Below, piece after piece: positions 9,577 through 58,759 of a stretch of DNA of 60,359 bases. Each line of letters opens with the position of its first letter. Within the stretch, counting starts at the first letter, position 1. Origin of the DNA: Elusimicrobiota bacterium (GTDB taxonomy: Bacteria; Elusimicrobiota; Elusimicrobia; UBA1565; UBA9628); the NCBI GenBank assembly GCA_027451985.1, contig DAIDHS010000016.1:1-60359 (forward strand). The letters run 5' to 3'. The notes below the pieces were generated by a model. That model was not told the DNA's origin. It saw only the letters and a list, made by a program, of their open reading frames with translations, and did not search any database. Position numbers and translations under genes: made by a program.

Positions 9577-10749
9577 GTGGAGAACGGAAAGCTGCGGCCC
9601 CTCCTGCGGCGCGCGCCGCCCGGCTCGGGGATTTTCACCCGCCGCCCCGACCGATACCAGCCGGGCAACGAGATCGACATTTTTCCCGGCGGCGCTCCGG
9701 CTTTCGGTGCCATGATGGGCGCCATCGACGACGCCCAAAAAACGGTCCACCTGGAATCCTACATTTTCGACGGCGGCGTTTCCCGCCAGTTCGCCGCCCG
9801 CTTGGCCGCGGCGGCGCTGCGGGGAGTTTCCGTGAGACTCATCTACGACTCACTTGGCTCGCTCGCCCTCGATCGGCGCTTGCTCGAAGATCTGCGCATC
9901 GCCGGCGTCCGAATCCTGGAGTACCATCCGGTCGCTCCCTGGCGCGCCCGCTGGTCCTGGTGGCGCCGGGACCACCGCAAAATCCTGGCCGTAGACGGAA
10001 GGATTGCCTTTACCGGAGGGGTCAACATCTCAGACGTTTATCTTCCCCAAGATTCCGGAAGTTCCGGCTGGCGCGACCTGCATTTCCGCGTCTCCGGGCC
10101 GGCCGCTCACGAGTTGGATCGGCTCTTCCGAAACGTGTGGTTCAAAGAAACCGGATCCTATTTTTCTCTCATCGAGCCCGAACAGCCCCGGTTCCCGGAA
10201 AAATCCTTGGTCTGGGTCGCCGCCAACCAGGAGTTCCTGCACCGCACCATCATCCGCGGCGCCTACCTGCGCGCCATCCGGGCGGCGCGGGAAGAAATTC
10301 TCATCGCCCACTCCTACTTTCTTCCCGAGCGGCGGCTCAGGAGAGCCCTGGCGGCGGCGGCTCGGCGCGGCGTGCGCGTAAAGCTGCTCGCGCCGGGAAC
10401 CTCCGATATTTCTTCCGTCTGGCTGGCGGCGCGCAGCCGCTATGATTATCTTTTGAGCCGGGGCGTCCGGATCTTTGAATGGGGCGGACCCCTGCTCCAC
10501 GAAAAAGCCGCGGTGGTGGACGAACGTTGGAGCGCGGTCGGATCTTATAATATGGATCGCCGCAGCCTGCTGCACAACCTCGAAGTCAATCTGCACGTTC
10601 TTGATCCGGATTTTTCCAGCCGCCTTGCAGGCATCCTTTCAACCGACATGGCCAATTCGCGCGAAATACGCCTGGACGAATGGCGGCGGCGGCCGCTCCG
10701 GGAAAAGATTCTGGAGCGCGTCTTTTTCCGGCTGCGCTATTTTTTGTAG
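9577..10749 (+). CDS. Cardiolipin synthase-like phospholipase D family protein
   Basis: 390 residues from a GTG at 9577. An ATG at 9475 is in frame but lies inside sdhC and upstream of the TATAAT box, so the GTG is preferred. Two HKD motifs are present: RDHRKILAVDG with GGVNISDVYL downstream, and LLHEKAAVVDERWSAVGSYNMDRRS. This two-HKD architecture is shared by ClsA/B/C cardiolipin synthases. No N-terminal membrane segments are present, as in ClsB. It probably condenses phosphatidylglycerol or acts as a related phosphatidyltransferase. SixA follows after nine bases and is likely co-transcribed. Confidence 0.85.
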   Translation: MENGKLRPLLRRAPPGSGIFTRRPDRYQPGNEIDIFPGGAPAFGAMMGAIDDAQKTVHLESYIFDGGVSRQFAARLAAAALRGVSVRLIYDSLGSLALDRRLLEDLRIAGVRILEYHPVAPWRARWSWWRRDHRKILAVDGRIAFTGGVNISDVYLPQDSGSSGWRDLHFRVSGPAAHELDRLFRNVWFKETGSYFSLIEPEQPRFPEKSLVWVAANQEFLHRTIIRGAYLRAIRAAREEILIAHSYFLPERRLRRALAAAARRGVRVKLLAPGTSDISSVWLAARSRYDYLLSRGVRIFEWGGPLLHEKAAVVDERWSAVGSYNMDRRSLLHNLEVNLHVLDPDFSSRLAGILSTDMANSREIRLDEWRRRPLREKILERVFFRLRYFL

Positions 10750-10758
10750 GCTAGCGGC

Positions 10759-11223
10759 ATGTTCATCTACCTGCTACGTCACGGCCACGCCTTGTCGGCC
10801 CAGGAAGCTGGGGTCGCAACGGACGCCGAGCGCCCCATCTCCAAATCGGGCAAGGCCGAAATCAAGGCCAGCATTGATGAGCTCTTGCGCCGGGGAGGGC
10901 GGCCGCAGCTCATCCTGCACAGTCCTCTGCTTCGCGCGCGACAGACGGCGGAAATCGCGAACGCGGCCCTGCCGAAGCCCCATGCCTTGCGGCTCTATGA
11001 GCCCCTGGGCAACGTGCTCACGGCGGAAGAACTCGAGCCGCTCTTAAAAAAAGAAGGCCGCGGCTTGGATCAAATTCTGGCCGTCGGGCACCAGCCCCAA
11101 CTCGGCGAACTCGCCTCCCTATTTTCCGGCCGGAACTTCGAGATACGAACCGGCGGCTTGGTGGCCATCGAAGCAGGAGAAACCGGAGCCACGCAGGCTC
11201 TCTGGAGCTACAATCCCGGCTGA
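10759..11223 (+). CDS. sixA: Phosphohistidine phosphatase SixA-like (histidine phosphatase family)
   Basis: 154 residues. The catalytic RHG (R7-H8-G9 in YLLRHGHA) is at the very N-terminus. The second part of the pocket is in SPLLRARQTAE, and the second catalytic His is in LAVGHQPQLGEL. Length and motif order fit the short SixA branch, which removes phosphate from histidine phosphotransfer domains. Given several two-component proteins in the window, a signalling role is plausible but not shown. The 3' end overlaps the convergent rsmD gene by 16 bases. Confidence 0.85.
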   Translation: MFIYLLRHGHALSAQEAGVATDAERPISKSGKAEIKASIDELLRRGGRPQLILHSPLLRARQTAEIANAALPKPHALRLYEPLGNVLTAEELEPLLKKEGRGLDQILAVGHQPQLGELASLFSGRNFEIRTGGLVAIEAGETGATQALWSYNPG

Positions 11224-11798
11224 GGCCGGCCCGGTCGGAAAAATTCAAGGATCGTATCCCCGTATTTTTCACGCCTGATTCGAACGAGACCGTCGGGAGC
11301 GGCGACCTTCTCTTTGATGTGATGCTGGCAGACGACAACCGCCCGAGGCGATAAAATTCCGGCGCGCACGACCTGAGCCAGCGCCGGAGAAGAATAGGCC
11401 AGCGGCCTTTTCTCCTCATCCTTATACGGAGGCCCCAAAAAAACAATGTCGAACGCGGAAACTCCCGCACGAAACGGAATCCACGATAAGTCCTCCAAAA
11501 CATTCCCCGGCCAGACCCTAGCCCTGGCCGCAAGGCCGGCTCTCTGAAGGTTCGTTTCAATCGCATCGCGGCACACCTTATTTTTCTCCACGAAAAAGGC
11601 CGACTCAGCGCCCCGGGATAGAGCCTCCAAGCCCACGGCTCCGCTGCCGGCGAAAAGATCCAAAAACTTGGCGCCCGGGATCATTCCCTTCAAAATGTCA
11701 AAAAGGGATTTTTTGATGCGGGCCGAAATCGGCCGCAGGCCGGGATTATTCGGGGCGCTCAAATGGCGGCCTCGAACGGCTCCGGAAATAACTCGCAT
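11208..11798 (-). CDS. rsmD: 16S rRNA (guanine966-N2)-methyltransferase family protein, altered motif IV
   Basis: 196 residues from the ATG at 11798; in-frame codons further upstream would run through the divergent promoter. It begins MRVISGAVRGRHL and has the RsmD-typical RPISARIKKSLFDIL. The SAM-binding motif I is FLDLFAGSGAVGLEALSRGA. Motif IV, normally (D/N)PPY in N2-guanine methyltransferases, reads GPPY (G122, codon GGG at 11435-11433). The first residue of that motif contacts the target amino group, so activity may be reduced or changed. Everything else looks intact. Confidence 0.85.
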   Translation of the reverse strand: MRVISGAVRGRHLSAPNNPGLRPISARIKKSLFDILKGMIPGAKFLDLFAGSGAVGLEALSRGAESAFFVEKNKVCRDAIETNLQRAGLAARARVWPGNVLEDLSWIPFRAGVSAFDIVFLGPPYKDEEKRPLAYSSPALAQVVRAGILSPRAVVVCQHHIKEKVAAPDGLVRIRREKYGDTILEFFRPGRPQPGL

Positions 11799-11832
11799 AT
11801 TTTGTCCCGGCCGCGGACGGCCGAGTTCATTT

Positions 11833-11840
11833 ATTATAAG
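11833..11840. promoter_or_regulatory. Shared divergent -10 element: rsmD and receiver-MBL gene
   Basis: ATTATAAG reads as TATAAG on plus (11835-11840, 10 nt before the ATG at 11851) and as TATAAT on minus (11838-11833, about 34 nt before rsmD). Same symmetric TTATAA core as at 9561. Confidence 0.5.
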
Positions 11841-11850
11841 ATAGAGCCGC

Positions 11851-13119
11851 ATGGCCGGTAAAATCATCATCGTGGACGACGACGACATCGCCGGGGACCT
11901 CTCCCGCGCCCTGCTCAAGGACGCCGGCTTCGAGGTCGAGCTCCTGACCGAGAGCCGCGCGGCCCTGGGCCGTATCCGGCAAGCACAGCCGGACGCCGTC
12001 GTGCTAGACATCCTGATGCCCGGCATAGACGGCCTGAGCCTCTGCCGACAAATCAAAAGCGATCCGTCATTGCCCGGGGTCAAGATCGCCATCGTCTCGG
12101 CTAAATCCTTCAGCGCGGACCGAACACGGGCCAAGGAATCCGGCGCCGATCTCTTTATTTCCAAACCCTACGATGTCGAGACATTTTCCTCGCAGATCGG
12201 CGCGCTTCTTTCTCCCAAGGAACACGCGCCTTTTTTAGCCGGTCCGGAAGCCCTCTCCGATGCGCCCGACCCGATTTTCCGCGTTTCAATCTGGGGAAGC
12301 CGGAGCCGCTCCGAAACGGAGCGAGCGCCTTCCGCCTACGGAAGAAATACCCCCTGCGTGGGAGTCGAGGTCACCGGGCGCACGCTCCTCTTCGACGCCG
12401 GGACCGGCGCGATCGCCGCGGGACGGGAGTTGGAGTCGTCCGGGGAACGCAAAGAAATATGGGTCTTCCTTTCGCACTTTCACGCCGCCCACGTCCAAGG
12501 GTTGGCCGAGCTTGCTCCTCTCGCCATCTCGGAATCGGTGGTACACCTGTGCGGCGCGCCGGAGACGGACAAAAGCCTAGCCGATCTCCTGCGGCCGATC
12601 CTGGAAGCCGCGGGACGCCGCAATGGACCTCGAATCCGGGCGAAAATGGACCTTTATGAACTACGCGGCGAACGCTACGAGATTTTCCCCGGCGTTGCCA
12701 TGACCTCTTTTTACGCCAATCATCCCGGCACCACTCTGGGCTTCATCTTGGAGTCGGCCGGCCGGAAAATAGCCTATTGTCCCGACGACGAAATCAACGG
12801 AACCCGCGCTCAGGCCCTACAGGACCACGACGAAAAAATCGCCAGGATTTACGCCGGTGCCGACTTGGTCATCCACAACGCGCGCTACACTTCCGAAGAC
12901 TACCCCCATTTCGAAGGCAGCGGCCACTCCAACTTCATGGACACGGTCGATCTCGCTGGCTCCTGCAGGGTTAAAAGACTCATCCTATTTCACCAAGACG
13001 CGCGCTATTCCGATCAAGAAATCGACGAAATGGGTGCCGCCGCCGCTTCAAGGGCGAAAGAAAAGGGTTACCCGACCCAAGTCGTGGTCGCGCGCGAAGG
13101 CCTGCGCGTCGCCGTTTAG
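11851..13119 (+). CDS. Response regulator fused to a degenerate metallo-beta-lactamase-fold domain
   Basis: 422 residues. Residues 1-120 form an intact receiver: acidic DDDD at 9-12, phospho-acceptor D53 (VVLDILMP), S83, and K105 (ISKP). Residues 140-420 are a metallo-beta-lactamase fold of the RNase Z / cyclic-nucleotide phosphodiesterase type (VSIWGSRS, TGRTLLFDAGTGA, SHFHAAHVQGL, NHPGTTLGF, HNARYTSEDY, GHSNFMDTVDLA). Several metal ligands are replaced: HxHxDH reads HFHAAH (A213), the usual bridging Asp of HDAxY is N343, and HHDP reads HQDA (Q382). It probably works as a phospho-controlled binding module rather than a hydrolase. It overlaps the convergent nfo-like gene by the tetranucleotide TTAG. 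Confidence 0.85.
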   Translation: MAGKIIIVDDDDIAGDLSRALLKDAGFEVELLTESRAALGRIRQAQPDAVVLDILMPGIDGLSLCRQIKSDPSLPGVKIAIVSAKSFSADRTRAKESGADLFISKPYDVETFSSQIGALLSPKEHAPFLAGPEALSDAPDPIFRVSIWGSRSRSETERAPSAYGRNTPCVGVEVTGRTLLFDAGTGAIAAGRELESSGERKEIWVFLSHFHAAHVQGLAELAPLAISESVVHLCGAPETDKSLADLLRPILEAAGRRNGPRIRAKMDLYELRGERYEIFPGVAMTSFYANHPGTTLGFILESAGRKIAYCPDDEINGTRAQALQDHDEKIARIYAGADLVIHNARYTSEDYPHFEGSGHSNFMDTVDLAGSCRVKRLILFHQDARYSDQEIDEMGAAAASRAKEKGYPTQVVVAREGLRVAV

Positions 13120-41503: not shown

Positions 41504-41963
41504 AGTCCTCACGGCCTTTTCCGCGGTATCTCTCTTCGCCCTGTGCGCATGCGCAGAAACGCTCGGGCGGCACGGGCCCTCCCCCTCGTCCCTCACTCCC
41601 GTGGCCCGGTGGCAGGGCTCTTTTTCTTCCGTCACCAAGCCCGAAGAAGAAATCGTCACAGACGCCGGCGCGTGGGCCGCTCTTTGGCGCAAAATCGGCC
41701 AAGCCGCCCCCAATGTGGACATGTCGCGAAGCTTCGCGGTCGCCGTCTTTCTGGGAACCCGGCCGACCGGCGGATACGGCGTCGTGTTCCTGCCGCCGTC
41801 CATTGAGCAGGGGGGGATCGTCATCGCCTACAGAGAGAAGAAGCCCTCGGGCATGACGTTTGAAGCGCTGACCCAGCCTTACGCCGTGCAGCTCTATCCC
41901 AAAACCGGACTTCCCGTCCGTCTCGAAAACGCGGCCGGCGAAAAGACCAGGACGCGCCGATGA
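41496..41963 (+). CDS. PrcB-like lipoprotein
   Basis: 155 residues from the ATG at 41496, overlapping the tldD stop. A signal peptide NKVLTAFSAVSLFALCAC ends in a lipobox-like LCAC, so it is probably a lipoprotein. The rest resembles the PrcB C-terminal domain: TDAGAWAALWRKIG, RSFAVAVFLGTRPTGGYGVVF, and VQLYPKTGLPV. Members of this domain are linked to proteases (PrcA/PrtP) of spirochaetes, but often occur alone. It could assist a periplasmic or surface protease. Confidence 0.72.
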   Translation: MNKVLTAFSAVSLFALCACAETLGRHGPSPSSLTPVARWQGSFSSVTKPEEEIVTDAGAWAALWRKIGQAAPNVDMSRSFAVAVFLGTRPTGGYGVVFLPPSIEQGGIVIAYREKKPSGMTFEALTQPYAVQLYPKTGLPVRLENAAGEKTRTRR

Positions 41964-43192
41964 AACGCGCGTCCATCTTGATGGCCCTGGCCCTCGCCTC
42001 GGCTGGTCTCGCGTCCGCGCAAAACAACCCAGAGAGCCAGGGCTCCTCTTCTAATGCCTGGAATTTCAAGTCCAAGCATACCGCCGTGGTCGATCAAACG
42101 AAGGGCATTTATAAGGACGGCAAGACCGCCTCCGGGATTAACGGCGGCATGCGCCCCGAGGAGCAGGCCGAAATCCTGAGCAACATGTTCGAGGGCCAGA
42201 GCGCCGACATCCGGAAAATCATCACGCCCCAAGCTTCAAACTCGAAAGCTTCGGCGGCTTCCGGCCCCGAAGCCGCGGGATATCTCGACCTCCTAAGCCT
42301 CTCCAACCTGACGGGGTATTCGCCGAAAATCCAGGCTCTGCAGAGCCGCCTCAATGCCCAGGCTTCCGGCATTCCCGGCGCACCCAGCCTCAAGGAGACT
42401 GGGAAACTCGATTACGAGACGCTGAGCTATCCGCGCTACGTCTTCCGCTACGATTTGGCGCAAATGGAAACACGCTTCAACGCGGAGCGACTCGCCGCCG
42501 GAGGCGCTCCGCCCGCCTCATCGTCCCTAAACAATCAAGGACAAGTCCTGGCGCGCGCCGAATCAGCCGTCGCCTCTTTCGAGCAGACCGCGAAAGCGGC
42601 CCAGGCTCCCCACGAGATCACCGCTTCCCTGCTCCGTTCTCTCAGCGCCAAGCAGAAAGAGGCCTCCCGATGGATTTCCGAAGCCGCCCTGCTGCAGGAG
42701 AAGTCCAGCGCGATCGAGCGGCAAGGAGCTTTCAGCCCGGCCCTCCACGCCCTGGTTCTATCGGCGCCCGTGGGTGACGGCGTCAAAAGAGCCTACATCG
42801 AGCGCGGAAACAGCTTTCTTTCCTCTTTGAGGGAGCTGGCGTCCGAGGACGGTCGCGCGGCGCAGTTGCTCGAGTCGAAATCCTGGGAGTCGTCCCTGCC
42901 CGCCGTGGCGCAAATCGAATCGCGCAACGCCGCCCTGAGCGCAAGCCTGTCCCGCTATCTTCCGGACTACGTCAGGACCCCCTATCTTCTGGACGCCGCT
43001 TCCAAGCAGAATCCCGCGCCCGGACTTTGGGACAAAATTTCGGCGTGGATTTTTTCCGCTGGTTCGCAAACCGAGAGCGCCTCCCGGCAAAAGACGGATC
43101 AACTGACTCAGGCATTCAAAGACATCGCCGCGGGCAATTTCGAAGCGGCCCACGTCGTTCTAATGGTTGCGGCGGCGCACTCGGAGCCTTAG
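41960..43192 (+). CDS. Exported helical protein of unknown function
   Basis: 410 residues, not recognised. Signal peptide MKRASILMALALASAGLASA, then a Ser/Asn-rich segment and a mostly alpha-helical body rich in Ala, Ser, Gln and Glu (LARAESAVASFEQTAKAA, SLLRSLSAKQKEASRWISEA). No catalytic motif is evident. It is the last gene of the kinase-tldD-PrcB transcript, starting within the stop of the PrcB-like gene (ATGA). It overlaps the convergent solenoid/HEAT gene by TTAG. A scaffold or envelope role is a guess. Confidence 0.7.
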   Translation: MKRASILMALALASAGLASAQNNPESQGSSSNAWNFKSKHTAVVDQTKGIYKDGKTASGINGGMRPEEQAEILSNMFEGQSADIRKIITPQASNSKASAASGPEAAGYLDLLSLSNLTGYSPKIQALQSRLNAQASGIPGAPSLKETGKLDYETLSYPRYVFRYDLAQMETRFNAERLAAGGAPPASSSLNNQGQVLARAESAVASFEQTAKAAQAPHEITASLLRSLSAKQKEASRWISEAALLQEKSSAIERQGAFSPALHALVLSAPVGDGVKRAYIERGNSFLSSLRELASEDGRAAQLLESKSWESSLPAVAQIESRNAALSASLSRYLPDYVRTPYLLDAASKQNPAPGLWDKISAWIFSAGSQTESASRQKTDQLTQAFKDIAAGNFEAAHVVLMVAAAHSEP

Positions 43193-46100
43193 CCCCCGAT
43201 CTGCGCCGCGGCCCTGGCCGCGGCCGATCTGACCTCCGCCGCGGGATCATCGTTTTTCAGCCGGAGAAGAAGCGGCAGGAGCTTACGGCGCGCGGCCATG
43301 GCGGGGTAGGTCGCGATCGAGAGATCGGAGACGGCCGCCAAGCGCACGCGCTCGTCCGGATCCGAAAGCGCCTTACGTAAAAGAAGAAACAGCCGCGGAT
43401 CCCAGCTGTGCGCGGCAGCCAAGGCCGCCCCTTCCTTCTGCGCCCGGCCCCCCGATTTAAGAAGACGCGATATTTCTCCGAACGCCGCGACGCCCATCTT
43501 CCCCAAAGCGAAGGCGGCCGCGACGCGGATTGCCGCCCGCCTGGAAGTCAAAAAGCGGGAAATTTTCGCGGCGTCGCGAGAACGCCCCATGCCGCCCAGG
43601 GCCAAAAGGGCCGCAGTGCGCACCTCCGGGCTCGGGTCCAGCAAGGCGCGCGCAAGCGCCCGGCGACCGCGGCCCTCCCAACTCAGCGCGGCGTCGATTT
43701 GCCGCTGGAACGCCCGGGCATTCTGCCTCGGATGGACGCGGATTTGGCGCGCGAACTCCGCCGCCGCCGGGCCGCCGGCGGAATCGAAAGGATTGGAAGC
43801 CTTGAAGGCCAGGGCCATCTTGTCCGCCAGGGAAAATGCGGGATTAAGCGAGAGCAGGGCGTAATAATCCCCAAGCGTTCTGCGGCCGAGTTCGTCGGAT
43901 TCATCGGCCGAGAGCGGCGCCGTCGAGAGCGCGACGGCCTTCGCCAAATCCAAAAACCCTAGGCGCCCCATCTCTTCCCCTTTCTCACGGTCAAGCCAAT
44001 AGCCGACGGTCGCGGCGGCCTGCGCGCGCGCGCGCCAGTCCGGATCGCCTCTCAACACCGCCAAGGCGGCGTTCCAAGAAGATTTGCTTGGCGCGGACTC
44101 CAGCAGGTCCAGAAGCAGCGCCTTCTTGAGTCCGCGTGCGCGCGCCAAAGCCTTCAAGTCGGCCGAGACCAAGCGTCCGCCTTGAGCCTGAGCGGCCAAT
44201 CGAATCCAAAGAAGCTCGTCGAAATTTTTCGGAGAGAGGAGTCCGGGTAGGCGTGATGCCTCCATCGGACCAAAGGACAGCAGGCGGATCATCGCCTGTC
44301 CCGCCGTGGCGCCGTCCAAATTCGCGGCGGATAAGACAAAGAGGCAGTTGCGCAGCGCGTCCGGCCGCGCGATCCCGGAGCCGGCCAGCGCGGCCTCCAA
44401 CGCGACTCTTTCCCGGTTTAAGGCGCGCGCGCGTAATTGCGGATTTTCGGGCCACTGCGGCGCTGGCAGACCCGGACCGGAAGCGATGAGCAATCGTCCC
44501 GAAGAGATCGCGGCGCCCCATGGCCCGAAGCGGAGTGCGGCGGGGCCGCGAATCACCTGTGGTCCCCACGGTTCTTCAAGGAGGTTGTCGCGGCCAGAAA
44601 TGTCGGCCAGGACATAACTGGGGCCGTCACGGCCTGCCGCTCCGAAGCCGAAGTCATGAAGGTCTAGAATGTTGCGGTTTCCCGCGATTCGAACGAGGGC
44701 CTCGCCGTTGACTTGGGCGCTGGCCGAGGCCCATTGCGCGTAAAGCGTATTGGAATCTCCCTCAACCGAAAAATTACCGATGCCTCGATCCCATCCGAAG
44801 CCCGGCCCGACGCCCCAATTGTCAATTGAGTTGCCGTTTCCTTTTATAGACAAGCTGCCTACGGCCATATGGATTCCCGAGCCTTGACCGTAGCGTCGCG
44901 CCAACAGCCGGTTTTTATCCCCGGAAACCATAAATCCTCCGAAACCGTGCCAATAGCCGCTTCCTTGGGAGTTGTAGCTCGCCTCAACGTGCGAGCCGGA
45001 GCCCTCGAGGACCGCCAAACCGACGCCGCCGGCCGCAAAAGCTCTCGGTCCGTAACCGACGCCTTGGCAGAGGCTCAAAAACGCCTTGTCCTCGTGGCCG
45101 TCCGGATCGGCAAAGCCGCAGGAAAGCCGCGCGCCATTTCCCTGTAAACGGAACAATCCAGCGCCCGCGGTAAACCCGAAGCCTTCGGCGGCGAAATCCG
45201 CGGACAAAGACGCGGACGATCCGCGGGCGAGGAAAATTCCCGCGCCGAAAGCTCCGGCGCCTTGGGAGAAGCTGCCGGTCTTAATCCGGAGAGGTCCGCC
45301 GCCGGCCTGGAGCGTCCCCACGCCGAACAAGCCGGCGCCCGCGGAAAAATTTCCCGCCGAAATCGTCTTGCGTCCGGAGCCCGGCAGGAACATCATTCCC
45401 ACGCCCAAAATGCCGCTCCCCGCCGCCGGACCCGAACTCTTCACGACGGCGTTTTCACCTAAATCGATGACGACGCGGATTCGGCCGGGCCCTGCGGCCG
45501 CTGCGGGACCGCGGTAGACGTCTCCATTCCCAAAATCAACAATCACATTTGCGGTTGACAAATCCTCCGGCCCATACTGATCCAAGTCCAGACCGGAGAC
45601 AATCAGCGCGCCGCCGGGGAACTTCAACCGTGTCCTTGGAAATCCCTTCATCCGGCCTGCCTCCCGCCGCAAAACCGGAATTTCCCGTTCCACGGCGGCG
45701 GATATAATCGAAGCCGCGGCGAACATCTCCGCCCTGTCGAACTTGGCCGCGGCCTTGTAATAGGCAGCCCGCGGCCGCGCGGCAGGCCGATTCGTGAGGA
45801 TCGCGGAGAAAAAACCGAGCGCGGCGGCGCGATCTGAGCCCGAAAGAGAGCGTCCCGCCTGAGCGACGAGAACCTGCGCGACAGAAACGGCGCCGCAAAT
45901 CCTGCCGAGAGGCCGCGCCAGGCGCGGGGGTAGTTTTTCGCTCAAATCTTGGCGGATCGCTTCCTCGGATGCGCCGGGCGCGCCCCGGGTCGAGGCCGCC
46001 ACGGATGAAACGCTCAAAATCCACCGTGCCGTATTCAAGGCCGCCGAGAGCCCCGAAGCCTGGTCAAGGCCGGCAAGCCACGCGCCCGAACGGTCGGGAA

Positions 46101-46320
46101 TTTCCAACGGATCAGCAAGCATCGATTCGACCTCTGGAACAGCCATGGACGCCGGCCAGCGAGACGGAATCTCGTTCCAATCGGCGCGGGAAACGTCCAA
46201 AGCCGCGAGGCCGCGTCTCAAATCCCCGGCGGGCCATCCGGTTTTTTTTCCGGCGGGAGCCGCGCCAGCCGAGGCGGCAAGAATCGTCAGAGCCGCGGCC
46301 GCCAGCGCAGCGGACTTCAT
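43189..46320 (-). CDS. Secreted glycine-rich beta-solenoid fused to HEAT repeats
   Basis: 1043 residues from the ATG at 46320, which overlaps the upstream patatin stop (ATGA). Signal peptide MKSAALAAAALTILAASAGA. Residues about 25-290 are helical and unrecognised. About 299-557 contain eight imperfect repeats of some 26-32 residues, with the pattern (S/G)QGxGxxxxGxGxxxxxGxxNxLxA: for example SAGAGLFGVGTLQAGGG, SQGAGAFGAGIFLARG, SQGSGYWHGFGGFMVSGDKN, GQGSGIHMAVGSLSIKGNGN, GPGFGWDRGIGNFSVEGDSN. This looks like a beta-solenoid. The rest is helical, ending with HEAT repeats at about 770-1043 (SPEVRTAALLALGGMG, AAIRVAAAFALGKMG). The combination is unfamiliar to me. Role unknown, probably envelope scaffold. 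Confidence 0.8.
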   Translation of the reverse strand: MKSAALAAAALTILAASAGAAPAGKKTGWPAGDLRRGLAALDVSRADWNEIPSRWPASMAVPEVESMLADPLEIPDRSGAWLAGLDQASGLSAALNTARWILSVSSVAASTRGAPGASEEAIRQDLSEKLPPRLARPLGRICGAVSVAQVLVAQAGRSLSGSDRAAALGFFSAILTNRPAARPRAAYYKAAAKFDRAEMFAAASIISAAVEREIPVLRREAGRMKGFPRTRLKFPGGALIVSGLDLDQYGPEDLSTANVIVDFGNGDVYRGPAAAAGPGRIRVVIDLGENAVVKSSGPAAGSGILGVGMMFLPGSGRKTISAGNFSAGAGLFGVGTLQAGGGPLRIKTGSFSQGAGAFGAGIFLARGSSASLSADFAAEGFGFTAGAGLFRLQGNGARLSCGFADPDGHEDKAFLSLCQGVGYGPRAFAAGGVGLAVLEGSGSHVEASYNSQGSGYWHGFGGFMVSGDKNRLLARRYGQGSGIHMAVGSLSIKGNGNSIDNWGVGPGFGWDRGIGNFSVEGDSNTLYAQWASASAQVNGEALVRIAGNRNILDLHDFGFGAAGRDGPSYVLADISGRDNLLEEPWGPQVIRGPAALRFGPWGAAISSGRLLIASGPGLPAPQWPENPQLRARALNRERVALEAALAGSGIARPDALRNCLFVLSAANLDGATAGQAMIRLLSFGPMEASRLPGLLSPKNFDELLWIRLAAQAQGGRLVSADLKALARARGLKKALLLDLLESAPSKSSWNAALAVLRGDPDWRARAQAAATVGYWLDREKGEEMGRLGFLDLAKAVALSTAPLSADESDELGRRTLGDYYALLSLNPAFSLADKMALAFKASNPFDSAGGPAAAEFARQIRVHPRQNARAFQRQIDAALSWEGRGRRALARALLDPSPEVRTAALLALGGMGRSRDAAKISRFLTSRRAAIRVAAAFALGKMGVAAFGEISRLLKSGGRAQKEGAALAAAHSWDPRLFLLLRKALSDPDERVRLAAVSDLSIATYPAMAARRKLLPLLLRLKNDDPAAEVRSAAARAAAQIGG

Positions 46321-48371
46321 TCCGGAACGATGGGGCTCGCCAGACGCAGCGGGACTTGGCATGAATCGGAAAAAAACGGGAGCAAAGACTTAATCTTCGG
46401 CAGATACTGCTCCGCCGCGCGCTCGCCCTCCTCGATGAGCGCCTTGGCTTTATCCAGCTGGGTCCATGAAAAGCCGGCCAATTCCGGACGTATGACGACG
46501 TCCGCTAAACCTAGGCGAGCCTGGGCCACCCAAGTTTCCATAGTGAAGAACATTTGAGAAAAGGTTCGGAACATGGAGGGGGCCTTAAGCGCGCCCGGCA
46601 AGGACAGGCTCTCCAGAATGGCGGCGCCGGCCGCCGAGACACCATCTTCCTTTTGGGTGAGGGCCCGTCCCGCGGAAGCGTTAATCGGGCCGATAACCTC
46701 CGAGGCGATGAAGATGTCCGCCTCCAAAGACGGCAGCACGCTCACCGGGACGGGATTAACTAGTCCGCCATCGACCAAATAGCGTCCGGAAAGGCGGTAC
46801 GGGGAAAAAATCATGGGGATGCCGCAGCTGGCCCGGACGGATTCGGCCACCCGGCCATCCCTGAGGACGATCTCCTCTCCGTTTTCAATGTCGGTAGCGA
46901 CGCAGGCGAACGGCGTGGGGAGATCCCTGAATTCTTTGGACCCGAAGTAAGACCTCAGCAGACGCAAAAGCGTTTCACCGGCGAAGAAGCCCGAGCGGGG
47001 AACGGTCAAGTCCCACAGAAGGTTCTCGTAAACCCATCCCCGATCGATGGAACAGGCGATCTCCTCCATCTCCTCCGGATCTATTCCCAGCGCGAACAGG
47101 CCGCCCAAAAACGAACCCATTGAAGATCCGGAAACCGCATCGACCGGGATCCCATGCCTCTTAAACACCTTAAGGATTCCGATGTGCGCGAAGCCGAACG
47201 CCGCCCCGGAGCCCAGCGCCAAGCCGACCCTCAGTCCCGAAAGTCCCCGCGCCAGACGGCCGATGGCGTTCTTGGCCGGCGGGCAGCAGTCCAAGGCGGC
47301 ATAGGGGGACTTTGTCCTCGCATATTCCGCGGCGATGGCTTGTGGCCAGGGAAAAACCTGAGGAAGCGTCTCGGCGGCGGCGTCCTGGGGCTCCAGGTCT
47401 CCCAGCCAAATCCGCACAATCCTCCTAGCGCCTGCGGCGGGAATCATCTGTCCCTCCATCTGCCGGTATTGGGACTTGCAGGAGGAGGATCCCGCCAAAA
47501 GCACCGCATCCGCTTCGGACAAGACGGCCTTTTGCGCGGCGCTCGTTCCAACGCCGGAGCAGACTAGGACGTAGTCGTGCGACTCACGCAGAATGTTGAG
47601 GAAAAGATAGATCGCCTGCTCGCGAAATTCATCGAAAACTGCCGCAGGAAGATTAAGGATCTTAAGTCCCGAGGCATGCTGCTGGATCATGGTCTTGATG
47701 AGCCTGGGATCGCGGAAATTGGCCTCCAAAAGCATGCTGCGGCTGACTAGGAGCGGCGCAATCCCCAAAGCCTTGGCGATGCCTCCCGCTCCGACGGACA
47801 TGTCGACCAAGACAACGCTGCGGCGGCTCTGCTCCAGAAGCTCCAGCGCCAGGTGCAGGCAGAAAAGCAGCCGATCGCTGTCCTCTAAAGCGGCGTTTAG
47901 AGAGACCAGCTGGCTGTGCACCCGGCCCGCCTCGCCTCCCGCGCCGCCGGCCGGCACCAGGCGGCGCGCCAAAACCCGGGAGATATGCAGCAAAACCGAC
48001 GGCCGGTCGCGGAGCATCTGCTCAAAGTCCTTGCGCACCATCTTAAGAAACTCGCACGTCGTCAGAAGCTTGACCGTCATCGATCGGGGCTCTCCGGTCA
48101 GAAGTCCTCCTTCGCCGATGATTTCTCCCCGCCCCAGCACCGCAACCATGCTCTCCGACTCGCCAAAAGCATGGAGGATGCCCACTTGGCCCGAAGTGAT
48201 GATGTAAAAAGCGTCCGGGTCGTCGCCGGGCCTGAAGAGAACGGAACCCTTGGACAGGGAAACGGGCTGCAGGCAGGCCGCGATGGAGGCGATGTCCTCC
48301 GAGGGGAGCCCGGAAAAAAACGGGATGCGCTTTAAAAAAGGCTCCTGAAGGGAAATCTCCTCGGGTGTCAT
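46317..48371 (-). CDS. cNMP-binding / ParA-like / patatin phospholipase fusion
   Basis: 684 residues from the ATG at 48371. Residues 15-140 form a cyclic-nucleotide-binding domain (FFSGLPSEDIASIAACLQ, GSVLFRPGDDPDAFYIITSG, GRGEIIGEGGLLTGEPRS). Residues about 160-340 resemble a ParA/MinD/CpaE fold without P-loop (SVVLVDMSVGAGGIAKALGI, YVLVCSGVGTSAAQ). Residues 380-570 are a patatin domain: oxyanion turn GSGAAFGFAHIG, nucleophile S417 in SGSSMGSFLGG, and catalytic DGG in YLVDGGLVNPVP. This order recalls bacterial NTE-type lysophospholipases. The first gene of its operon, with TATTAT 6 nt before the ATG. Confidence 0.88.
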   Translation of the reverse strand: MTPEEISLQEPFLKRIPFFSGLPSEDIASIAACLQPVSLSKGSVLFRPGDDPDAFYIITSGQVGILHAFGESESMVAVLGRGEIIGEGGLLTGEPRSMTVKLLTTCEFLKMVRKDFEQMLRDRPSVLLHISRVLARRLVPAGGAGGEAGRVHSQLVSLNAALEDSDRLLFCLHLALELLEQSRRSVVLVDMSVGAGGIAKALGIAPLLVSRSMLLEANFRDPRLIKTMIQQHASGLKILNLPAAVFDEFREQAIYLFLNILRESHDYVLVCSGVGTSAAQKAVLSEADAVLLAGSSSCKSQYRQMEGQMIPAAGARRIVRIWLGDLEPQDAAAETLPQVFPWPQAIAAEYARTKSPYAALDCCPPAKNAIGRLARGLSGLRVGLALGSGAAFGFAHIGILKVFKRHGIPVDAVSGSSMGSFLGGLFALGIDPEEMEEIACSIDRGWVYENLLWDLTVPRSGFFAGETLLRLLRSYFGSKEFRDLPTPFACVATDIENGEEIVLRDGRVAESVRASCGIPMIFSPYRLSGRYLVDGGLVNPVPVSVLPSLEADIFIASEVIGPINASAGRALTQKEDGVSAAGAAILESLSLPGALKAPSMFRTFSQMFFTMETWVAQARLGLADVVIRPELAGFSWTQLDKAKALIEEGERAAEQYLPKIKSLLPFFSDSCQVPLRLASPIVPE

Positions 48372-48940
48372 TTTGATATAATATGCGCCGGGCCCCAAAA
48401 AGCGCAGGCTAAGAGCCCAATCACCGTTTTGGAATCCTTGATCTTCCCTTCGCGCACGAGCCGCAACGCCCGGCGGAAAGAGACGATTTCAACCGAGAGG
48501 AACTCGTCGTCGTCGCACGCGGGTTTCCCGGATGAGAGCCCGCGGGCCGCGAAAATATGAATCACCTCGTTGGCGAAAGCCGGGGTCGGATAAAAAGCGA
48601 TCAGCTTTTGGATGGTCCGCGCCCGGTAACCCGTCTCCTCGGCCAGCTCGCGACGGACGCAGGACAAGGGACCCTCCCCGCGATCCAGCTTGCCGGCTGG
48701 AATCTCCAGGGTCGTCTCGCCGACGGGGTAGCGGTATTGGCGCACGAGGACGATGTTTTTTTCGTCCACGAACGGGACCACGGCGGCAGCGCCGGGATGA
48801 TCGAGGTACTGCCGCTCGGCACGGCGCCCGTTGGGCAAAAGGACCTGGTCCACGCAGAAGTCGACGCTGCCCCGATAGAGCCTGCGGCGCCGGACCGGAG
48901 TCTCAAGGAAGGACGCTGGCCCGCTGTTGTGTTTTGTCAA
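48368..48940 (-). CDS. NUDIX hydrolase (ADP-ribose pyrophosphatase type)
   Basis: 190 residues from a TTG at 48940 with an AAGGGG Shine-Dalgarno; the in-frame ATG at 49000 would lie within dnaE. The NUDIX box is GKLDRGEGPLSCVRRELAEE followed by TG (G-x5-E-x7-REUxEExGU). Upstream VRQYRYPVGETTLEIPAG and the N-terminal LYRGSVDFCVDQVLLPNG identify the ADP-sugar pyrophosphatase branch. It likely hydrolyses ADP-ribose or a related nucleotide sugar. Its stop overlaps the start of the patatin fusion gene by four bases, so both may be made from one transcript, in addition to a separate patatin promoter. Confidence 0.85.
   Translation of the reverse strand: MTKHNSGPASFLETPVRRRRLYRGSVDFCVDQVLLPNGRRAERQYLDHPGAAAVVPFVDEKNIVLVRQYRYPVGETTLEIPAGKLDRGEGPLSCVRRELAEETGYRARTIQKLIAFYPTPAFANEVIHIFAARGLSSGKPACDDDEFLSVEIVSFRRALRLVREGKIKDSKTVIGLLACAFWGPAHIISK
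48378..48383 (-). promoter_or_regulatory. -10 box of the patatin fusion gene, probably leaderless
   Basis: TATTAT (48383-48378, minus strand) ends 6 nt before the ATG at 48371. The box is inside the last codons of the NUDIX gene. No Shine-Dalgarno is present. Confidence 0.4.
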
Positions 48941-56474: not shown

Positions 56475-57785
56475 ATGCGAAATCTCTTCTTGCCGTGCGC
56501 CGGACCGCTCCTCGCGCTCTGCGTTGCCCTGCCGGCTGCGGCGCAGATGCCTTTGGATAAAACCTTCACTCTAGATGACGCCGTAAGACTAGCCCAGATC
56601 AATAACGCCGATTTGCTATCGGCGCGCCAGGGAGAGGTCATCGCCCAGGAACGCGTCAAGGAGGCGGAACTCCTATTCCTGCCCGAGGTCGGCCTCCAGG
56701 CCACCGCCACTCACTACGATGCCCGCTATCCTTTCGCGCCGACCGGCAACGACATCATCCTATTCCCGAACCAGTTCCTCAACCAGCCCGGCATTGAGGG
56801 CATCCCTACCGGGAATATTTATTCCGGCTACGGGTATTTGACCATGTCACTCTACGAGGGTGGGCGCACGCTCAATACGTTGCGCATGGCGGAAGCCGCG
56901 GAAAAACAGGCTTTCAACAATGAGGAATCCGTGAAGATGCGCGTCATCCTAGAAACCAAGAAGGTGTTCTACCGTCTCCTTCTGGCCCAAGAGACGGCCG
57001 CCGCCTGGGAAGATTACGCCGAGCGGGCGCAGAAGCTGTCCTCCACGGATCGGAATGTATCTTGGAAAAGCCTGGAGGCGCGGGCCGACGCCGAGTACGC
57101 CCGCGCCCAGGCCTCGTCCGCTAAGCACGCGCTGGATTTGGCGCGCCTGACCTTTCTAAAAAGCCTCAATCTAGAGATGGACACGTCTTTTACGGTGGAA
57201 GGCTCTCTGGAAACCAAACCCGTCTCAATCGACATCGAGCGGGCGGTGCTTTGGGCCCTAGAACTGCGCCCGGAACTTCAAGCCCAAACGTATCAAGCCC
57301 AGATGGACGCCATCTCCGTCAACCTTGCCCTTGCCCGCCGCAGCCCCACCATCTTCGTGGCCGGCGACTACGGCGTGACCGGCTTCGATTTCCCTCTTCA
57401 AATGAACAACTGGGACACGACGCTCGGCGTGCGCATACCCTTCACCTACGACTACTGGAGCCAAATCAAGGAAAAGCAGGCGGAGCAGCGCCAGGGAGAA
57501 ATCCAGCGCTCCGCGATGCAGGACAAGGTCCGCGTCGAGGTGCGCAGGGCCTATGAAAATCTTCAGTATTGGCAGAAGGAGTACCCCCTCCGCGAGAGCG
57601 AATACCAAAAATTTCAGGAACTCTACACCCGGCTGGAAAAAATCAGCCCCCAAGACGTTCCGGACCGCATCGAGGCGCTGAAAAATCTTACCGAGATGCG
57701 CCTCTCCTACCTGGACGCCGTGACCAGCCACATCCTGGCCAAGGCCGAATTGGAGCGCGCCGTGGGCCGGACCATCACGCAGTGA
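56475..57785 (+). CDS. TolC-family outer-membrane efflux protein
   Basis: 436 residues. Signal peptide RNLFLPCAGPLLALCVALPAAAQ. TolC/OEP features: a first helical hairpin (LDDAVRLAQINNADLLSARQ, VIAQERVKEAELLFLPEVGLQ), beta strands (YSGYGYLTMSLYEGGRTL), and a second equivalent (SIDIERAVLWALELRPELQAQ, ALARRSPTIFVAGDYGVTG). The two-fold internal repeat of the family is visible. No inner-membrane pump or adaptor is next to it, so its partner is unknown. It overlaps the following patatin gene by four bases (GTGA). Confidence 0.9.
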   Translation: MRNLFLPCAGPLLALCVALPAAAQMPLDKTFTLDDAVRLAQINNADLLSARQGEVIAQERVKEAELLFLPEVGLQATATHYDARYPFAPTGNDIILFPNQFLNQPGIEGIPTGNIYSGYGYLTMSLYEGGRTLNTLRMAEAAEKQAFNNEESVKMRVILETKKVFYRLLLAQETAAAWEDYAERAQKLSSTDRNVSWKSLEARADAEYARAQASSAKHALDLARLTFLKSLNLEMDTSFTVEGSLETKPVSIDIERAVLWALELRPELQAQTYQAQMDAISVNLALARRSPTIFVAGDYGVTGFDFPLQMNNWDTTLGVRIPFTYDYWSQIKEKQAEQRQGEIQRSAMQDKVRVEVRRAYENLQYWQKEYPLRESEYQKFQELYTRLEKISPQDVPDRIEALKNLTEMRLSYLDAVTSHILAKAELERAVGRTITQ

Positions 57786-58759
57786 ATCGCCGGCTCCTTG
57801 GCGCCGCCCTGGGAGCGCTTCTCGTGTTCCCCGCCAGAGCCAAGGCGGCGCTCGATCTTTCCCAGGACGGCTTGTTGCGCAACCATCTTTGGAACGAATT
57901 TCTGTCCCTCCCCAAAGACCGGCGCCCGGTCATGGGCGTAGCCCTTTCGGCGGGCTCCGTGCGCGGCTTGGCTCACATCGGCGTGCTCCAGGTGCTCGAC
58001 GACGCCGGTTTTCCCATCGACGTCGTCGCCGGAACCTCGATGGGATCCGTCGTCGGATCCGTTTACGCTTCGGGCCTCTCCGCCCGCCGCGCCAAGGAAC
58101 TCCTTGAAAACGCCGATCTGCGCTCCATCGCGAACCTCGGGACCTTCAGCCTCCTGCGCCTGATCATTTCGGACAAGCTTCTCTCTTCCCAAAGCGTGGC
58201 TTTGACGCTCAACCGCTACCTCAACGGCGAGCAATTCGAAAACCTACCCAAGCGCTTCGCCTGCGTCTCCATGGATCTCAACTCCGGAGAAGCCATCTTA
58301 TTTCGGCACGGCAATGTCGGCGAAGCCGTACGGGCCAGCATGAACCTGCCCGGCGTTTTCGCGCCCGTGGAGTATCGGCAGCGCTACCTGGTCGACGGCG
58401 GGGTCGTAGACTACGTTCCCATCGACGCCGCGCGCATCTTGGGGGCGCAGTGGGTCCTGGCCTCCGTCACCAAGCCGGACTACACGCTCGCCCGCCCCAA
58501 AAACGTCCTGCAAAACCTGGATCAGGTCATCGACATCCGCAGTTCTCTCATGGCCGACGAACAGGCAAAAAACGCAAACTTTGTCATCTCTCCCGGCTCG
58601 GACGGCATCACCATGTTCCAGTTCAGCCGCGCCGATGAGGCCGTCGATCAGGGCATCATCGCGGCGCACAAACATGTAGGCGCGGCCGAGGAAAACCTCA
58701 TTCTTTTCGCCTTGAACGACATCCTCCCGGGCCTCTCCGGGAAGGCGGCCAAGCCATGA
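57782..58759 (+). CDS. Exported patatin-like phospholipase
   Basis: 325 residues from a GTG overlapping the tolC stop. Signal peptide NRRLLGAALGALLVFPARAKA. Patatin domain at about 50-280: the oxyanion region VALSAGSVRGLAHIGVL, nucleophile S86 in AGTSMGSVVGSVYASGLS, and catalytic Asp in YLVDGGVVDYVP. The usual GGGxRG is SAGSVRG, so the first Gly is lost but Arg is kept. Unlike the cNMP-patatin at 46.3 kb it has no regulatory domains and should act in the periplasm or outer membrane. TPR gene follows with ATGA overlap. Confidence 0.88.
   Translation: MNRRLLGAALGALLVFPARAKAALDLSQDGLLRNHLWNEFLSLPKDRRPVMGVALSAGSVRGLAHIGVLQVLDDAGFPIDVVAGTSMGSVVGSVYASGLSARRAKELLENADLRSIANLGTFSLLRLIISDKLLSSQSVALTLNRYLNGEQFENLPKRFACVSMDLNSGEAILFRHGNVGEAVRASMNLPGVFAPVEYRQRYLVDGGVVDYVPIDAARILGAQWVLASVTKPDYTLARPKNVLQNLDQVIDIRSSLMADEQAKNANFVISPGSDGITMFQFSRADEAVDQGIIAAHKHVGAAEENLILFALNDILPGLSGKAAKP

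Follow-up and report, generated by a model that had tools for sequence, protein, structure and literature searches.

The window, by which we mean the whole 60,359-nucleotide stretch of Elusimicrobiota DNA that was analysed, contains a real gene at 43189–46320 that runs on the minus strand from an ATG at 46320 to a stop codon ending at 43189 and encodes 1043 residues, with the reading frame, strand and coordinates that the initial annotation had given it. Its parts and its neighbours are collected in Table 1. The AlphaFold2 model of the protein (mean pLDDT 91.8, pTM 0.92, 36 aligned sequences) consists of helices over residues 31–224, a beta-solenoid over residues 230–613 and helices again over residues 627–1042, in agreement with the earlier description of a beta-solenoid sandwiched between a helical N-terminus and HEAT repeats. 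The HEAT assignment itself is borne out both by the all-helical model of the C-terminus and by Pfam, in which PF02985 (E 1.1e-12, 47.4 bits against a cut-off of 23.5) and PF13646 (E 5.7e-10, 39.8 bits against a cut-off of 27.7) match this part, HEAT models being the only ones above cut-off in the protein. The view that the solenoid protein has a signal peptide and the adjoining patatin protein has none is one that we share, the judgement having been made by eye both times. The gene is single-copy in the window genome, where the remaining matches are to HEAT only.

Table 1. Positions of the solenoid gene, its parts and its neighbours in the window.
Feature	Positions	Strand	Basis or remark
Exported beta-helix/HEAT protein gene	43189..46320	-	1043 aa; ORF and AlphaFold2 model
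Probable signal peptide, residues 1-22	46255..46320	-	Hydrophobic N-terminus, by eye
Helical N-terminal domain, residues 31-224	45649..46230	-	Model; conserved with relatives
Beta-solenoid, residues 230-613, about 12 coils	44482..45633	-	Model, coil count, lag test
Putative working site, residues 407-511	44788..45102	-	Conservation (35, 70 and 14 further sequences); register
Putative working-site residues			D407, R409, Q419, R426, Y456, W457, R475, R476, Y477, H484, D511
HEAT-type helical repeats, residues 627-1042	43195..44442	-	Pfam, model, fold alignment
ATGA overlap of start codon with patatin stop codon	46317..46320	-	Sequence
cNMP-binding/patatin gene, upstream neighbour	46317..48398	-	No conserved system with the solenoid gene
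Convergent neighbour gene	41960..43192	+	4-base overlap with the end of the solenoid gene

Strand starts in the model place the coils at about residues 281, 307, 334, 360, 387, 433, 460, 487, 514, 540, 569 and 594. Most are 26–27 residues long, and a single coil of 46 owes its length to an inserted loop that carries D407 and R409. Residue similarity at lags of 27 and 53 is higher than at the best lag of any of 500 shuffles of the solenoid, so that the repeat proposed in the initial annotation is more than chance, while its count of eight copies is too low against the roughly 12 coils of the model. The consensus coil, taken from 124 coils of the members that carry the Asp ladders described below, is GLLIDLSGNDTYLADRFSQGAGIWGGV. 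A profile of a single coil is too short to pick out the window protein well; its best domains on the window protein score 8.8, 8.5 and 6.3 bits, and the best domain of the top-scoring shuffle among 1000 scores 6.7 bits.

As had been suspected, the repeat falls outside any named family in the libraries searched. The window solenoid matches 0 Pfam families at E ≤ 10, and 35 solenoids draw only stray weak matches from Pfam (best E 0.0076, to DUF6440, in two members); 18 solenoids, that of the window not among them, give two stray weak matches in NCBIfam (best E 0.074), and a profile built on these 18 matches no PDB sequence at E ≤ 10. A literature search, conducted at the level of abstracts and with subscription papers mostly beyond reach, found the family named nowhere. 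These solenoid proteins apparently constitute an unnamed and undescribed family of exported bacterial proteins. Related proteins with the solenoid share 29–42% identity with the window protein across the matching region, and for the HEAT fragment of G001, a second genome of the same genus, the figure is 81%. Among 57 genomes of relatives, 25 matched the window protein, several of them by HEAT only; the solenoid is present in 18, and G001 shows the HEAT end alone.

Scanned with a profile of aligned members, the GTDB contigs yield 44 loci. They span Elusimicrobia, Obscuribacterium, deltaproteobacterial genomes, Desulfobacteraceae or Thermodesulfobacteriota, Nitrospinia, TA06 and WOR-3, with one locus labelled plain “bacterium”; the gene calls around family loci are longest-ORF calls rather than annotation. 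By solenoid search, 30 of the 340 genomes searched in the window phylum have the family (19 of 191 among those of high quality), as do 16 of 77 Nitrospinota genomes and 12 of 395 in the deltaproteobacterial sample, which was drawn from the phylum of L083; the sole TA06 genome searched has four family matches, some partial. In the phylum of the WOR-3 genome, a candidate lineage that is still poorly known, the family occurs in 112 of 147 genomes, so that most sampled members of this group carry a solenoid without a name or a solved relative in the libraries searched. Origin from phage, plasmid or viral contigs was considered and set aside, there being no match in any of the three. Several individual cases deserve mention. 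Candidatus Obscuribacterium magneticum (L069) has a name that resembles those of Melainabacteria; NCBI places the genus in Elusimicrobiota, and its family protein groups with Elusimicrobiota in the tree. One Elusimicrobia genome has the gene split into two overlapping frames (L071:5974–8873). Many WOR-3 genomes have two family matches each, and in one of them two nearby family genes (L124:6402–8051 and 10286–11926) lie on distant branches of the tree. The members at Nitrospinota loci L152–L165 are 799–830 residues long, some of them with lipoprotein-like starts and what by eye is a PDZ-like N-terminus.

The fold of the solenoid was approached through a shorter relative, L085, a protein of 671 residues without HEAT that is modelled at pLDDT 86 and pTM 0.88. 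When the whole window model is searched, the list is filled by HEAT matches and thus tests only the HEAT part, of which residues 711–983 align with the alphaRep protein 5dcq_C (Z 17.7, 2.8 angstroms over 157 residues); the window HEAT repeats resemble HEAT and alphaRep proteins in their helical repeats and differ in being fused behind an exported beta-helix. Foldseek alone gave no fold match for the L085 solenoid (best E 0.64), whereas VIA-align matched L085 to Ag43 (7koh; Z 14.3, 5.7 angstroms over 268 residues), VacA p55 (2qv3; Z 12.2) and the P22 tailspike (Z 10.5), all of which we take to be right-handed parallel beta-helices. L085 accordingly falls in the parallel beta-helix class, with a right-handed winding that is implied by the aligned structures. 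The likeness lies in the coil-by-coil parallel beta fold; the family has no sequence match to these proteins, and it has regular 26–27-residue coils, QGxG and, in most members, Asp ladders. Where autotransporters have a C-terminal beta-barrel translocator, the window protein has HEAT repeats. Within what a predicted model can provide, we regard the fold as secure and, like the family itself and the ladder pattern described below, as a firm computational result, whereas the function of the family protein is something that we infer.

The HEAT part is in the same ORF as the solenoid in 39 of the 45 ORFs from loci L052–L095 by a home-made profile, and among WOR-3 members Pfam recognizes HEAT in five that this profile missed and in two that it saw in part. 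Elsewhere the two parts are separate genes. In five WOR-3 loci (L108, L109, L110, L111 and L113), HEAT is missing from the solenoid ORF and a HEAT protein is encoded by the gene that follows on the same strand, and the same arrangement of a solenoid ORF followed by a separate HEAT gene is seen in two genomes of the phylum of L083 (L081/L131 and L134). The separate proteins are 282–362 residues long and are HEAT by Pfam; at L108 and L110 the solenoid and HEAT genes overlap as ATGA. That the solenoid and HEAT parts are fused in some genomes and lie side by side in others provides good evidence that they work together. Counting against this are two solenoid-only members without a HEAT neighbour, L085, whose next gene is a glutamine synthetase, and L127, whose next gene is SpoIID; at the solenoid-only loci L121 and L122, the next genes have no match to the home-made HEAT profile. 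In the TA06 member L139, PDZ takes the place of HEAT by Pfam.

Conservation within the solenoid is concentrated. Across 35 solenoids there are 19 positions other than Gly that are at least 90% conserved, and 16 of them lie within residues 402–530, a stretch that was picked after inspection; of 20000 random draws, 2 place as many as 16 positions in some stretch of 129 residues. Four residues, Q419, R426, H484 and D511, are identical in all of 70 solenoids, deep paralogues included, in a set that omits same-genome duplicates, solenoids shorter than 310 residues and those containing X, and a further six (Q379, Y456, D286, Y269, Q452 and Y477) are 96–99% identical. The same four are also identical in all 14 Nitrospinota solenoids that were added later, a check confined to that phylum and not to be read as independent testing of catalysis. 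Counted from the first strand of the next coil, three successive coils have W457, H484 and D511, respectively, at register -3, most of the conserved glutamines are at register -7 or -8, and R426 is two coils ahead of H484. Because H484 and D511 occupy equal register on adjacent coils, they should stack at about one coil spacing beside an aromatic residue, and their register suggests that they form an Asp-His pair there. That the beta-helix carries a site is well supported by sequence conservation, and the four invariant residues provide a short list of mutations to test.

A second pattern runs the length of the solenoid. In 37 sequences of the main type there are two Asp positions per coil over 12 coils, each 0.81–1.00 conserved, and the motif D..GxD.Y occurs in 8–12 copies in each of 46 sequences (8–11 copies in the 14 later Nitrospinota sequences). 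The motif is absent from 24 Elusimicrobiota sequences, that of the window included, and there are no intermediates. In the first row of these 24, Asp is retained at 262 (18 of 24) and 286 (24 of 24), Asn stands at 314 (16 sequences), positions 365 and 392 are mixed, and 339 and 438 to 574 are mostly V, I, L or F; in the second row, Asn predominates at 267 and in the coils starting at 460 to 569, with V, K, A, S or a mixture at the positions between. Since D262 and D286 persist in the window clade, the loss of the ladders is extensive rather than complete. Mean net charge per 100 residues is -6.6 in the 46 Asp-motif sequences against 0.0 in the 24. The 24 motif-less members make up one side of a branch with support of 100/100 in a solenoid tree that was rooted at midpoint only, and the branch persists with support of 1.0 after the removal of 120 ladder and flanking columns. 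As four other Elusimicrobiota in the tree set have the Asp form, loss in one lineage is the simpler reading. Carboxylates piled at coil spacing need their charge balanced, which makes bound metal likely, and, judged by the Asp pattern only, the ladders are likely to be its binding sites. The all-or-none distribution of the motif offers a comparison, within one family, between beta-helix folding that is probably metal-bridged and folding that is probably metal-free.

Export provides the setting for any function. A simple script finds an export-like hydrophobic N-terminus in 59 of the 64 members whose N-terminus is visible, and several members have lipoprotein boxes; of these the script counts seven, wrongly including L069 and overlooking L091 and L093. 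Together, export-like starts and lipoprotein boxes point to placement in the periplasm or outer membrane. Within the window order, none of the genes immediately flanking the family gene recurs from one genus to another, and conservation of a neighbour between phyla is not seen. Upstream of the family gene, at a distance of two genes, 10 of 15 Nitrospinota loci carry an lpxK-like gene cluster with kdtA/waaA-like genes next to it, both assignments resting on one tested member of each cluster. In one Elusimicrobiota family, a PF00275 (MurA-type) gene lies directly upstream in four of six gene-carrying genomes, a count in which G061 and G058 are not settled and in which the genes beside L059 and L065 were assigned by BLAST clustering with L072 rather than by a Pfam scan of their own. 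The conserved context, where present, concerns the envelope, and this is weak evidence since each such context is confined to one lineage. SpoIID was rejected as a general partner; the gene is in 136 of 147 WOR-3 genomes but, among the matches listed, adjoins the family gene in only two (G761 and G764). In three Elusimicrobiota genomes SpoIID lies one or two genes upstream, which a ruvB–SpoIID gene order may explain. Other neighbours are recorded as observations only: amidohydrolase-like genes, by eye, beside many of the Nitrospinota loci L152–L165, and a MurJ-type gene, to which we give no weight, next and convergent at L083 (by Pfam) and third and convergent at L093.

Our best guess, and a tentative one, is that the protein is an exported factor acting on envelope polysaccharide, whether by catalysis or by binding. 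Coils 5–9 would carry one working site made up of R426, H484 and D511 and ringed by Q419, Y456, W457 and R475-R476-Y477, in which H484 and D511 might work as an acid/base pair of the Asp-His kind and R426 could bind an acidic group. The site may then bind or chemically alter envelope polysaccharide in the periplasm or outer membrane in the manner of beta-helix polysaccharide enzymes, a weaker step of the proposal. The HEAT tail, or PDZ in some members, would dock a partner. The usual form of the solenoid is probably braced by metal along its two Asp ladders, whereas the window clade, in which hydrophobic residues and a partial Asn row replace most of the ladder Asp, probably needs no such metal. 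A bolder version, which we think possible but rather doubtful, is that these proteins represent a new enzyme class, exported beta-helices whose Arg-His-Asp-Gln site is invariant and which are normally braced by two metal-bridged Asp ladders of about 12 steps each; one Elusimicrobiota lineage would have swapped most of the double ladder while keeping the site. If true, nature would here have exchanged one means of holding an entire beta-helix together for another.

Known beta-helix proteins offer partial parallels. The PL6 alginate lyase has a beta-helix with an Asn ladder, its catalytic Lys/Arg lie near a His, and Ca2+ sits at the carboxylate of the substrate (PMC6879350); the 10-step Asn ladder of an alginate lyase beta-helix is there called the longest reported (PMC6879350), and another paper describes an Asn/Asp ladder on the edges of the Hap beta-helix (PMC6605025). 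Our family resembles PL6 in having invariant R426 and H484 and, in the window clade, a partial Asn row, and differs in that the PL6 enzyme described there is single-domain while most family members have helical N-terminal and HEAT parts. The family also differs in having D511 beside H484 and in lacking an invariant Lys; of the catalytic Lys and Arg of PL6, only the Arg has a counterpart in the invariant R426, no Lys being even 85% conserved in the 70 solenoids. None of the 35 solenoids matches PL6 or any other beta-helix enzyme family in Pfam.

The invariant residues could instead hold a ligand or partner rather than catalyse, and a non-catalytic scaffold or adhesin follows close behind the polysaccharide reading as an almost equally tentative alternative. 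The beta-helix would then be a rigid stalk, the invariant residues a partner docking surface and the HEAT or PDZ parts further docking sites, perhaps in outer-membrane assembly. Both domain partners, HEAT and the PDZ of one TA06 member, are protein-binding types, and the nearest solved folds include the non-enzymatic passengers Ag43 and VacA p55, yet R, H, D and Q are strictly identical throughout 70 + 14 sequences, which is unusual for a docking surface, some of these sequences, among the members from outside WOR-3, sharing only 21–25% identity with the window protein when the full alignment is counted. Less probable, indeed unlikely, is that the Asp-ladder form is mainly a calcium-responsive structural element that, like RTX repeats, folds when exported into a medium rich in calcium, the window clade being calcium-independent. 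The two conserved Asp per coil and the charge difference between the two groups are what such an element would lead one to expect, and both the family solenoid and RTX are Asp-rich, Gly-rich repeats in exported proteins; but the coil of 26–27 residues differs from the RTX nonapeptide, the family members scanned have no match to RTX models in Pfam, and the invariant R426, H484 and D511 would be left unexplained.

It is very hard to credit that the solenoid protein and the patatin cooperate in lipid metabolism, the more so as only one of the two looks exported. The ATGA overlap with the cNMP-patatin gene is present at 46320–46317, as the initial annotation stated, and in G001 the solenoid gene adjoins the same 41960 gene on the same side, the contig ending inside the solenoid gene with the patatin side out of view. 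The pair as a meaningful unit does not survive comparison, however, with the two genes adjacent in 0 of the 17 other genomes that carry the solenoid gene (carriers other than G000 and G001). In 14 of these the patatin, whole or, in G010, partial, is on another contig, and the remaining three have a short patatin only, also on another contig; in G036, G037 and G043, whose contigs do not extend upstream of the solenoid gene, the patatin is several kilobases into a different contig. No patatin is found among the genes that neighbour the 18 loci of these genomes; six of the loci are at a contig edge, and three of those (L034, L044 and L045) have the upstream side out of view. Seen from the other gene, a full-length patatin relative is found in 46 of the 57 relatives by reading of the match list, and all 10 patatin regions examined in relatives are without a solenoid gene. 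The orthologue of gene 41960 is on the same side as in the window in six of these ten, with a gap of less than 200 bases between matches in four (G003, G004, G006 and G032), so that the solenoid gene sits in a junction that is uninterrupted in the relatives examined. A conserved solenoid–patatin system is thus already contradicted and the adjacency is most likely a chance insertion; co-transcription of the two genes at present is possible, and a shared function is not indicated.

The neighbouring genes have features of their own. About 250 residues in the middle of the cNMP/patatin protein (46317–48398, minus strand) match no Pfam family above cut-off, and a second, RssA-like patatin is encoded about 10 kb away at 57569–58759 on the plus strand; several relatives preserve both the spacing of the two patatins and the genes between them (NUDIX, dnaE and others). 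The gene at 41960–43192 on the plus strand encodes a protein of 410 residues whose start looks like that of an exported protein and in which no Pfam family passes its cut-off, and the orthologue of this gene adjoins the patatin in several relatives.
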